A DNA stretch of 32,226 nt from Flavobacterium cyanobacteriorum (lineage in GTDB: Bacteria; Bacteroidota; Bacteroidia; Flavobacteriales; Flavobacteriaceae). Every line of letters starts with the position of its first letter. Positions within the stretch are counted from its first letter, which is position 1. The notes under the pieces were generated by a model, which saw only the letters and a list, made by a program, of their open reading frames with translations, did not search any database and was not told the origin of the DNA. Made by a program: the position numbers and the translations under genes. Shown here piece after piece: positions 6,881-24,949 of this stretch. The DNA is taken from the NCBI RefSeq assembly GCF_002251835.1, contig NZ_NOXV01000293.1, positions 21,135-53,360 of the forward strand, in the 5' to 3' direction.

Positions 6881-7182
6881 AAACTAAAAGTTAAAATTAT
6901 TATAAAATTTTTTAAATAAAAACACACCAATCCAGTCCTTCACACCATTTTTATTGTATTATCAAAAAAATAACAATCCTGCATGTAAAAAAAATTAATT
7001 TATAATATTAAAACTGGAATTATAAAATAACTAACAAAAAACAACCAAAATTTTATATTTTTTTAATTGTATTTTAACTCCTCAATAATAAGTAAACAGG
7101 TACAACCTTAATATCCCTAACTAGACATTAGTTAAAATTTAAAATTTTTTAAGAGTGCAAAATATGCTTTTGAAAATATTCA

Positions 7183-21769: not shown

Positions 21770-22516
21770 TTACGATTTAACGCTTGCAAACAGGTACTCC
21801 CTGTTCATCCGGGCAATATTTTCAAGTGAAATCCCTTTAGGGCATTCCACCTCGCAGGCGCCGGTATTTGTACAGTTACCAAAGCCTTCTTCGTCCATTT
21901 TCTTAACCATGTTCAGTACGCGTTCGTGCGCTTCAACCTTACCCTGGGGAAGGAGAGCGAACTGTGATACTTTAGCCGAAACGAAAAGCATGGCTGAAGC
22001 ATTTTTACAGCTGGCCACACAAGCGCCGCAACCAATGCACGTAGCCGCGTCAAAAGACCTGTCGGCATCATGTTTCTTAATAGGAATGGCATTGGCATCA
22101 ATAGTATTGCCTGATGTATTTACCGAGATAAAACCACCGGCCTGCTGGATCCTGTCAAAGGAACTCCTGTCAACTACAAGGTCTTTAATTACAGGGAAAG
22201 CTTTAGCACGGAAAGGCTCAATATAAATAGTATCGCCATCCTTAAATTTCCTCATGTGCAGCTGGCAGGTAGTTACGCCCCTGTCAGGGCCGTGTGCCTC
22301 ACCATTAATGAACAGCGAGCACATGCCGCAGATACCTTCACGGCAGTCATGGTCAAAAGCAACAGGGTCTTCGCCCTTGTTGTTAAGCTCTTCATTTAAC
22401 ACGTCAAGCATTTCAAGGAATGACATGTCAGGAGAAACGTTGCTGATGTTGTAATCAACCATTTTCCCCGCTTCCCTGGCGTTTTTTTGGCGCCATATTT
22501 TAAGTTTTAAATTCAT
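21770..22516 (-). CDS. sdhB: Succinate dehydrogenase/fumarate reductase iron-sulfur subunit
   Basis: This 248-residue protein carries all cysteines for the three clusters. C58, C63, C66 and C84 (CREGICGMC and a later C) bind the [2Fe-2S]. C160, C163, C166, C170 ([11 protein letters not shown]) with C215, C221 and C225 ([11 protein letters not shown]) bind the [4Fe-4S] and [3Fe-4S]. The length and the N-terminal [12 protein letters not shown] suit the type-b enzymes of Bacteroidetes. It passes electrons from the flavoprotein to the cytochrome b and menaquinone. It is the last sdh gene but is separated from sdhA by 432 nt, owing to an inserted four-helix-bundle gene cassette. Without that cassette it would sit about 20 nt downstream of sdhA. 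Confidence 0.96.
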
Positions 22517-22529
22517 GTTAATAGTTTTT

Positions 22530-22949
22530 AGCCACTAGCCACCAGCCAAAAGTTATTTGCTGAGTGTCTTAATAAAGGCGTTTAACATTTTACTTTCTTC
22601 GGTAATCAAACCGGATATTTCCGTAAATTTTAAATCTTCAATATAATTTAGTTCTTTGGCTATAATCAGTTGTGTTTCCAGTTCCATGAGTGAACCTCTT
22701 GAAACGCGGAGAAACTGAAGGTAGCTTTGTGTAGAATCTCTTCCCCAGCCTTCAGCTATGTTAGAAGGCACAGAAACAGCTGACCGCTTCATCTGACTCT
22801 GTAAACCAAAGATCTCGTCTTTAGGGAAAGACCCAAAGCACAAATAAACTGCTTTAACAATCTGAATTCCCTTTTGCCATATAAGTAAATCTTTATAATC
22901 TTTAATTTCACTCATATAGCTAATGCCTAATGCCTTATGGCTGGTGGCT
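22530..22949 (-). mobile_element. Four-helix-bundle gene cassette bounded by inverted heptamer arrays
   Basis: The 12-bp sequence AGCCACCAGCCA occurs at 22537-22548 and, inverted, at 22938-22949. It bounds a 413-bp segment that holds one gene and almost nothing else. The outer copies belong to 7-nt arrays. On minus from 22949: AGCCACC, AGCCATA, AGGCATT, AGGCATT, AGCTATA, running into the ATG. On plus from 22530: AGCCACT, AGCCACC, AGCCAAA, AGTTATT, ending at the stop codon. The segment begins at the last base of the sdhA stop codon and ends about 20 nt before sdhB. No transposase, and no obvious target duplication. I interpret it as a small non-autonomous mobile cassette (inference). Confidence 0.6.
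22553..22915 (-). CDS. Four-helix-bundle protein (23S rRNA IVP / TIGR02436 family)
   Basis: This 120-residue protein matches the family of four-helix-bundle proteins first seen in intervening sequences of 23S rRNA genes. The hallmark is FGLQSQMKRSAVSVPSNIAEGWGR (helix 2 and the following turn, residues about 36-60). After it come two amphipathic helices (SYLQFLRVSRGSLMELETQL and a C-terminal one). The N-terminal YKDLLIWQKGIQIVKAVY is the family's first helix. Members form small oligomers; Avd of diversity-generating retroelements is a structural relative. The general function is unknown. Here it sits between sdhA and sdhB in the same orientation, within a cassette bounded by inverted heptamer repeats, so a role in succinate dehydrogenase is unlikely. 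The heptamer array reaches the ATG itself. Confidence 0.93.
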   Translation of the reverse strand: MSEIKDYKDLLIWQKGIQIVKAVYLCFGSFPKDEIFGLQSQMKRSAVSVPSNIAEGWGRDSTQSYLQFLRVSRGSLMELETQLIIAKELNYIEDLKFTEISGLITEESKMLNAFIKTLSK

Positions 22950-24949
22950 TATTTGTAACTTCTCTGAACTAATTTTACGTTTTCAAAAACAAGAGGCTCT
23001 TTGTGCAGCACTGCTTCGCTTGGTTTACCTCTGTATTCCCACGCTGCAACGTAGGCAAAGTTCTCGTCATCACGCTGTGCCTCACCCTCCTCGGTCTGGT
23101 ATTCCTCACGGAAGTGGCCTCCGCATGATTCGTTCCTGTGCAGGGCATCCTTTGCAAAAAGCTCGCCAAGTTCAAGGAAATCGGCTACGCGCATAGCTTT
23201 TTCCAGCTCCTGGTTAAGGCCATACATATCGCCGGGCACTTTTACATCACGGTAAAACTCATCACGAAGTGCCGCAATTTCGGCAATGGCTTCAGTAAGA
23301 CCCTGCGCATTACGCGCCATACCTACCTTGTCCCACATTATCTTACCAAGGCGCTTATGGAAATAGTCAACCGTATGCGTCCCCTTATTATTAATAAGGC
23401 TCTCAAGCTGTGTCCTTACATTATTTTCAGCCTCCTCAAATTCAGGAAGGTCTGTTGATATTTTACCTGTACGTATATCTTTGGCAAGGTAATCACCAAT
23501 AGTATATGGCAACACGAAGTAACCATCGGCAAGGCCCTGCATCAGTGCCGAAGCACCAAGACGGTTAGCCCCGTGGTCAGAGAAGTTAGCTTCACCTATG
23601 GCGTAGCAGCCTTCCACTGTTGTCATAAGGTTATAGTCAACCCAAAGGCCACCCATAGTATAGTGCACTGCGGGGTATATCATCATTGGGGTTTCATACG
23701 GATTTTCATCCACAATCTTTTCATACATCTGGAAGAGGTTACCGTACTTATTCTCAATAACTTCCGTGCCCAGTTGTTTTACCAGTTTTTCATCGTCGGG
23801 ATTAAGCCCTTTTATCTTTGCCTGTTCCTTACCGTAGCGTATAATGGATGAAGCAAAGTCAAGGTAAACAGCCTCACCTGTTTTGTTAACGCCAAAACCG
23901 GCATCGCACCTTTCCTTGGCAGCGCGCGAAGCCACATCTCGAGGTACAAGGTTACCAAACGAAGGATATCTCCTTTCAAGGTAATAGTCCCTGTCTTCTT
24001 CAGCTATTTGTGTAGGCTTCAGCCTTCCTTCACGGATGGCCTGTGCGTCTTCCAGTTTTTTCGGTACCCAAATACGCCCGTCGTTCCTTAGCGATTCTGA
24101 CATCAGCGTAAGCTTACTCTGGTGGTCACCTGAAACAGGGATACAGGTGGGGTGAATCTGCGTATAGCATGGATTGGCAAAGTATGCTCCTTTTTTGTGT
24201 GCTTTCCATGCGGCGGTTACGTTACTTCCCATAGCGTTGGTAGACAGGAAGAAAACGTTGCCGTAACCTCCTGTGCCCAGTACTACAGCGTGAGCAGAAT
24301 GCCTTTCAATTTCACCGGTTACCAGATTACGGGCTATAATGCCGCGTGCTTTTCCGTTTACAATAACAAGGTCCAGCATTTCGTGGCGGTTATACATCTG
24401 TATCTTGCCACGGCCTATCTGGCGGTTCATGGCAGAGTACGCACCCAGTAAAAGCTGCTGGCCTGTCTGGCCTTTAGCATAGAAAGTACGGGATACCAGC
24501 GTACCACCGAAAGAGCGGTTATCAAGCAGTCCGCCATATTCCCTGGCAAGCGGCACACCCTGCGCGACACACTGGTCAATAATATTTGTTGAAACTTCGG
24601 CAAGGCGGTGTACGTTGGCTTCGCGGGCGCGGTAGTCACCTCCTTTAACCGTATCATAGAACAGGCGGAACACTGAGTCTCCGTCTCCCTGGTAGTTTTT
24701 AGCTGCATTGATACCACCCTGTGCCGCAATTGAGTGCGCACGGCGTGGCGAGTCCTGGAAACAGAACGCCTTAACGTTATATCCCAGCTCAGCCAGTGTA
24801 GCCGCAGCTGACCCACCTGCAAGCCCGGTACCTACAACAATAACATCAATATTACGTTTGTTGGCAGGGTTTACCAGGTTGATCTTGTTTTTATAGTCTG
24901 TCCATTTTTGAGAAATAGGACCATTTGGTATTTTAGAATCTAATGCCAT
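22949..24949 (-). CDS. sdhA: Succinate dehydrogenase/fumarate reductase flavoprotein subunit
   Basis: This 666-residue protein is a full-length SdhA/FrdA of the type-b class. The dinucleotide-binding segment [22 protein letters not shown] lies at about residues 35-56. [15 protein letters not shown] contains H72, the histidine expected to carry covalent FAD. Substrate-site segments include [14 protein letters not shown] and [16 protein letters not shown], and the late [20 protein letters not shown] segment contacts FAD. It oxidises succinate to fumarate (or the reverse) on the cytoplasmic face and reduces SdhB. It starts 4 nt after sdhC. Its stop codon abuts the four-helix-bundle cassette, so the operon is interrupted immediately after it. 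Confidence 0.97.

Follow-up and report, generated by a model that had tools for sequence, protein, structure and literature searches.

Between sdhA and sdhB of Flavobacterium cyanobacteriorum lies a small gene framed on both sides by short, inverted tandem repeats, which raises the question of whether this arrangement is an accident of an ordinary operon or a DNA element in its own right. The locus was analyzed within a stretch of 32,226 nucleotides (contig NZ_NOXV01000293.1, positions 21,135 to 53,360; hereafter the window), on whose minus strand the gene order is sdhC, sdhA (22949-24949), the small gene (22553-22915, 120 amino acids; referred to as the IVP gene) and sdhB (21770-22516). The 5' arm (22915-22949) starts with the final base of the sdhA stop codon, the single base that it shares with this gene, extends to the A of the IVP ATG and, read on the minus strand from 22949 to 22915, consists of the five heptamers AGCCACC, AGCCATA, AGGCATT, AGGCATT, and AGCTATA. 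The 3' arm (22530-22557) is inverted relative to the 5' arm, reads AGCCACT, AGCCACC, AGCCAAA, and AGTTATT on the plus strand, overlaps the IVP stop codon and ends 13 nt before the sdhB start. All nine heptamers are composed of AG followed by five bases. Both arms were recovered by inverted-repeat searches, by TRF and as period-7 runs. A 21-nt inverted repeat of 86% identity (plus-strand halves 22537-22557 and 22929-22949), whose outer 12 nt are perfect (AGCCACCAGCCA at 22537-22548, reverse complement at 22938-22949), was the sole inverted repeat reported by the repeat finder between 22300 and 23200 at a minimum length of 12. Two of the three period-7 rows that TRF lists for the 32-kb window are the cassette arms. 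The third (7120-7147) is an AT-rich, TTAAAAT-like run without an IVP gene. The original prediction of a perfect 12-bp inverted repeat with opposed arrays of 7-nt units around a single TIGR02436 gene, forming a segment of 413 nt, is thereby confirmed.

The encoded protein matches the profiles PF05635 (4.6e-37) and TIGR02436 (1.5e-35) and lies far above the curated cut-offs of both families (TIGR02436, 121.7 vs. 24 bits; PF05635, 126.9 vs. 33.8 bits). A relative in the PDB is 2gsc (1.1e-19), and five chains each are listed for 2gsc and 2rld. A solved relative, Xcc0516, is described as a homopentameric ring of four-helix bundles (PMC10053308 and PMC4990558). Some 23S rRNA intervening sequences likewise code for proteins of this family (PMC10053308), and S23/IVP proteins are without known function (PMC4990558). 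Avd, the accessory protein of retroelements, is a related four-helix bundle, as indicated by the profile matches (NF033474, 6.7e-8; PHROG Avd phrog_3206, 1.1e-11) and by PMC10053308; however, the IVP protein remains below the Avd model cut-off (32.8 vs. 80 bits), and the genome's single RVT_1 match lies on contig C192 and not on that of the window (C304). Values of omega between 0.04 and 0.16 in the 12 pairs tested point to strong purifying selection on IVP, so that of the two roles originally suggested, cargo or accessory factor, passive cargo does not fit. In contrast to these pairs, which come from elsewhere, three of the 14 IVP genes in this genome look broken, two of them (L006 and L009) by an in-frame TAG and one by division into two pieces (L014/L015). 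A reading of the cassette as an anti-phage defense system was rejected, as none of the PADLOC models matched the cassette gene at E <= 0.01.

If the framed gene is more than a local curiosity, similar arrangements should recur. The genome contains 14 TIGR02436 genes (15 rows, L014 and L015 being two fragments of the same gene), and by eye nearly all of them are flanked on both sides by inverted short-period arrays with a different unit each time. AGCCACC had been proposed as a common heptamer next to TIGR02436 genes; when it was looked for at the other loci, each cassette was found to carry a unit of its own. The arms were compared by scoring the 150 nt that precede the gene against the reverse complement of the 150 nt that follow it in 103 loci, comprising the 14 own loci and the 89 better-scoring of 127 rows from 30 relatives. 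Own pairs reached a mean of 22.25 vs. 12.07 for mismatched pairs, and a score of at least 17 was obtained for 85/103 loci vs. 1.9% of 2348 background windows taken from the same loci in the same geometry, so that the window locus is not an isolated case. The window cassette scores 18. Within its own genome, 9/14 loci reach 17, while L005 and L015 score 16, L009 and L011 14, and L010 9. The true arm partner was the sole best match for 32/103 loci and ranked among the top three for 62, with units being shared between orthologous and related loci.

Over the 103 loci, autocorrelation of both flanks has maxima at 7, 14, and 21 and a minor one at 8 (lag-7 z of 28 and 20), and the best period is the same in both arms in 79/85 pairs, namely (7,7) in 58 and (8,8) in 16. 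Runs of four units with at least 70% identity occur in 121 left and 122 right flanks of 183 loci vs. 1.1% of shuffles; the left arms are rich in G relative to C (0.24 vs. 0.10) and contain AG within the unit consensus in 68/121 cases. The number of units per arm peaks at 4-5 (180/224 loci, by a lenient rule and with three duplicates counted in). The order of units also matches between arms (overall p = 1.3e-9, n = 135), but the effect is small and absent at the window locus. Arms match better within than between species in four of six orthologue groups (sdh, p = 5e-5, n = 13; O1, 0.005; O3, 0.03; O6, 0.025), with no significant difference in O4 (0.25) and O5 (0.75). These comparisons indicate a common build for most IVP elements, as we call the cassettes: a single S23/IVP gene is flanked on each side by a tandem array, the two arrays are inverted relative to each other, and each usually has 4-5 units of 7 or 8 nt.

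As judged by a crude ORF-based caller, both neighbors are co-directional with the IVP gene in 91/103 loci and in 65 of the best 80 loci of a wider scan (see below). Co-direction is weaker in a mixed and cyanobacterial set of 41 loci, with 18 loci in the same direction and 5 antisense to two co-directional neighbors, an arrangement found zero times in either of the other two sets. Measured from the upstream stop codon, the 5' arm has its outer edge at a median of +2 nt (quartiles -4 and +14.5, n = 162), and the downstream start follows the 3' arm at a median of 6 nt (n = 158). The upstream stop codon is TAG in 75/162 cases vs. 24/133 for the downstream genes (p = 2.9e-7, related loci being non-independent). 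Host gene pairs in this genome, as judged from 10/27 neighbor proteins submitted to annotation, include hemF/hemB, sufC/sufD, a sufA-like gene/sufB, the halves of metH, and scoA/scoB. Two of these cassettes lie on contig C304 outside the window, L003 (3821-4138) between sufC and sufD and L006 (592-912), the copy with the in-frame TAG, between the sufA-like gene and sufB. The junction of split metH genes is a third recurrent cassette site (L005, L216, L234, and L349). A role of the cassette in causing this split was rejected: among the 30 metH loci that were read, 26 show the split without an IVP match, two contain an IVP gene and two are fused.

Gain or loss of a cassette should be visible at orthologous junctions. 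Of 50 sdhA-sdhB junctions from 61 genomes of the genus with sdhB, the genus being assigned to comparison genomes by inference from neighbor homology with named Flavobacterium loci, 48 were readable (all except L080 and L090). Five carry an IVP cassette, 10 are empty and 33 contain short spacers. The original prediction had anticipated an empty sister site of about 20-30 nt; such sites do exist, but they measure 6-12 nt from the stop to a start codon. The short spacers read as 45-95 nt and many appear by eye as back-to-back inverted arrays, with a three-unit run of period 7 or 8 in 24/33 vs. 2.4% of shuffles and a median z of -2.98 for the predicted RNA fold of the 33 spacers. Covariation of these gene-less hairpins as proof of an RNA function was rejected, as compensatory change was found at just 1/14 pairs. 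At the gmk-nadD junction, 30 of 59 matched genomes were read; eight carry an IVP gene, five appear by eye to contain gene-less arms and the rest contain short spacers or other repeats. The gmk stop codon is TAG in 7/8 filled vs. 3/22 other loci. In L315, L317, L319, L321, L326, L327, and L330, the spacer of about 105-111 nt is filled by a different repeat family (CGCAGAGAT...CACAAAGA...AGATTCGCAAAG plus the inverse). A target-site duplication was not definable at any of the sdhA-sdhB and gmk-nadD junctions read.

IVP genes between sdhA and sdhB were also found in Polaribacter, Arcticimaribacter, Lacinutrix, Winogradskyella, Capnocytophaga, and others. The same gene with non-heptamer flanks in such distant flavobacteria would have argued against a cassette; the sdh-site copies that were scored have arms built from other units (arm scores of 17 in Polaribacter, 16 in Lacinutrix, 15 in Winogradskyella, and 25 and 18 in two Capnocytophaga). 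In a tree of IVP proteins, which is based on a short alignment with unsettled bootstrap and is rooted at the midpoint, the 15 sdh-site rows need six changes of site, at least three of which are forced by well-supported branches, and cassettes from gmk-nadD and from another site are nested within an otherwise sdh-site clade. Therefore, the sdhA-sdhB site seems to have been both inherited and repeatedly re-used, and the claim of an insertion would hold for part of this history. Taken as a whole, the original interpretation is partly supported.

A mobile cassette would be expected to carry its ends along. In a comparison of 24096 locus pairs without detected flank homology, in which duplicates and related loci are not independent and short contigs may hide orthology in some cases, arm similarity rose with protein identity from 20.0 (<30%) to 28.2 (60-70%, n = 172) and 45.2 (at least 70%, n = 48). 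One example is the pair of L115, from the genus of the window, and L268, from a cyanobacterial class, which share 75% protein identity and the unit AATTACG and whose alignment covers the gene and the 3' arm only. Cassettes at different sites can be aligned up to or into the arms, and no further, in L028/L163, L030/L164, and L142/L148; in L103/L108 and L130/L152, the alignment stops inside or short of an arm. By comparison of genomes, inverted ends delimit a segment that is present at non-homologous sites, as in transposons and MITEs. The end sequences differ between copies. Sister sites without the cassette, cassettes of the same kind at non-homologous loci and homology ending in or at the arms support the predicted discrete cassette, to which the arms belong. 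The pattern further indicates that the unit varies between cassettes, is common to both arms and goes with the protein lineage.

The family reaches far beyond flavobacteria. A wide scan used an alignment of 17 IVPs as query, and among the best 80 loci, 11 of them from named Flavobacterium, 54 score at least 17 (background 2.1% of 3961) and 26 score below. Loci at or above 17 in this set stem from Bacteroidota, Cyanobacteria, Chloroflexota, Bosea, Clostridia, Planctomycetota, Patescibacteria lineages, and Desulfosarcina. Two archaeal loci are also among the best 80, one from Methanophagales (L183) with a score of 18 and a second (L175) with a score of 7. In the IVP tree, Bosea groups with two cyanobacteria. 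The mixed and cyanobacterial set of 41 loci was obtained from 58 further loci by removing 11 duplicates, five partial genes and L237, which itself scores 26; it retains L240, L249, and L254, which duplicate loci of the best 80. The TIGR02436 family is present in 15/39 genomes of a cyanobacterial class. Among 27 cyanobacterial loci, 16 score at least 17 and arrays are found on at least one side in 21 and on both sides in 11, with units that include AATTACG, GGGAGTC, and AAAAGGC. Such units are of the type known from cyanobacterial heptamer repeats.

Arrays are not confined to loci with the gene. In 331 kb of TIGR02436-free contigs of this genome, 17 rows of heptamer or octamer arrays were detected, and five of the ten that were inspected are located at a stop codon or immediately ahead of a start. 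Two rows, L302:1736 and the AT-rich L301:6482, have an inverted partner that scores 14, compared with 14-15 for the window arms, and the other 15 score at most 13. The array at L302:1736-1787 with its adjacent inverted partner near 1685 lacks an IVP gene and is a candidate gene-less double arm. Solo arrays of 7- or 8-nt units, with partner scores of 8-11 and no TIGR02436 gene, are found at L307:3852-3916, L309:4674-4749, L305:16048-16100, and L294:17564-17606. The gene-less arrays may be decay products of cassettes or an independent feature.

Stem-only forms are known for rRNA intervening sequences (IVSs), and the gene-less arms at operon junctions resemble them. The window cassette itself shares with the 23S rRNA IVSs of Leptospira and Coxiella the protein family and the layout of one S23 ORF between terminal inverted repeats, which form the terminal stem of its predicted RNA (z = -5.19). 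The Coxiella IVS of 444 nt is described in PMC4990558 as having a 28-bp terminal stem and an S23 ORF and as being cut by RNase III, and the 413 nt of the window cassette come close to the 428-444 nt of Coxiella IVSs given there. Unlike these IVSs, the cassette here lies in a protein-coding operon between a stop and a start codon. Its arms are tandem arrays of 7- or 8-nt units. A search around the fetched loci with three 23S rRNA motifs, allowing up to three mismatches, gave five matches in four loci, all to the shortest motif and judged to be due to chance; the fetched loci thus yielded no rRNA-borne IVP gene for comparison.

Together, these observations make it reasonably probable that the window locus is a copy of a widespread class of small mobile cassettes (about 400-500 bp), the IVP elements, which have unit-variable array ends and would be the operon counterpart of the 23S rRNA IVSs. 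In this model, the IVP homopentamer would bind the tandem units of both arms, with about one unit per subunit, and the bound ring would bring the ends together for movement by some enzyme. In the transcript, the arms would pair with each other and leave the IVP ORF in the loop of the resulting stem, much like in the 23S rRNA IVSs, and insertion between a stop codon and the next start would therefore be tolerated. Selection on pairing or binding may maintain the match between the arms, as may template switching within the hairpin, and gene-less arms may represent cassettes after loss of the gene.

Several of the same observations can be read differently. The arms might act at the RNA level only, with RNase III cutting the stem and thereby tuning the mRNA of the host genes, so that the cassette would be a kept regulatory module and not a mobile one. 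The predicted fold with the arms as terminal stem, the sense orientation, the low omega values, and the cleavage of the Coxiella IVS by RNase III (as described in PMC4990558) would all fit such a module. However, cassettes at unrelated genes in many phyla and their repeated gain or loss at sdhA-sdhB argue against it, and we consider it unlikely. It was also considered that the inverted heptamer hairpins might predate the cassettes as independent intergenic features, made of repeat arrays spread by slippage and hairpin template switching, into whose loops IVP genes drop. Arrays and double arms without a gene do exist, as seen in the 24/33 short sdhA-sdhB spacers with a three-unit run (vs. 2.4% of shuffles), and the inverted partner at L302:1736 is as good as the window's own arms (14 vs. 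14-15). Yet the unit type tracks the protein lineage in the absence of flank homology, even between L115 and L268 (AATTACG), and different copies have arm sequence in common, with homology stopping at or within the arms, which makes an origin from pre-existing hairpins distinctly unlikely.

The similarity to Avd and the one RVT_1 match in this genome raise the idea of a retroelement accessory, in which IVP would act in an Avd-like manner with a reverse transcriptase provided in trans. In an RVT_1 profile search, 12 of 31 IVP-positive genomes gave no match; a host reverse transcriptase is thus not supported as partner enzyme and, with the protein also below the Avd cut-off, this role is highly improbable. 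As the search for a partner enzyme covered reverse transcriptase, the cassette may or may not be non-autonomous, as originally predicted. Any single arm pair is short and, taken alone, might be dismissed as a coincidental inverted repeat next to an unremarkable small gene; this is refuted by the 85/103 loci vs. 1.9% of background windows and the 54 of the best 80 wide-scan loci vs. 2.1%, leaving it a negligible probability.

Returning to the IVP elements as mobile cassettes, their closest parallels outside rRNA are repeats and small transposable elements. Cyanobacterial heptamer repeats (STRR) are intergenic tandem arrays, and cyanobacterial IVP cassettes use arms of such 7-nt arrays. MITEs and REP/RAYT elements are short, have inverted ends and give rise to gene-less derivatives; the cassettes here differ from them in that their ends vary between copies of one genome. 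To our knowledge, no transposase goes with IVP cassette ends. Intergenic 7-nt arrays are likewise described in two papers: the TAACTGA arrays of Beggiatoaceae, located mostly just upstream of start codons and with no mechanism evident for their spread (PMC4679880), and the GGGAATC repeats of Xanthomonas with 70-75 convergent pairs per genome and GGGGA(C/T)T, a heptamer repeat of Nostoc (PMC4692102). In contrast to the cassettes, these reports describe arrays alone, and a word search of the two papers gave no mention of “S23” or “four helix.” Within the open full-text literature, subscription papers being outside this scope, no report was found that links TIGR02436/S23 genes with heptamer arrays.

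Mobility of the 23S rRNA IVSs has been suspected for decades (PMC4990558, citing work of 1990 and 1993), and the IVP cassettes resemble a family of mobile DNA that has attracted little notice. As a tentative extension, it is possible that IVP elements form a class of minimal mobile elements, found in bacterial phyla and also in at least one archaeal genome, the ends of which are lineage-private arrays of 7- or 8-nt units read by the encoded pentameric ring; the arms and their decay products would then be a main source of the cyanobacterial, Beggiatoaceae, and Xanthomonas heptamer repeats, and the 23S rRNA IVSs would be the same elements residing in rRNA. One structure may thus tie together the function of S23/IVP proteins, the mobility of 23S rRNA IVSs and the spread of TAACTGA arrays. 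Each of the three thereby becomes testable, through the unit specificity with which the ring protein would bind, through the appearance and disappearance of cassettes at particular operon junctions, and through the processing of transcripts from host operons, for example sdhAB, suf, sco, and hem.
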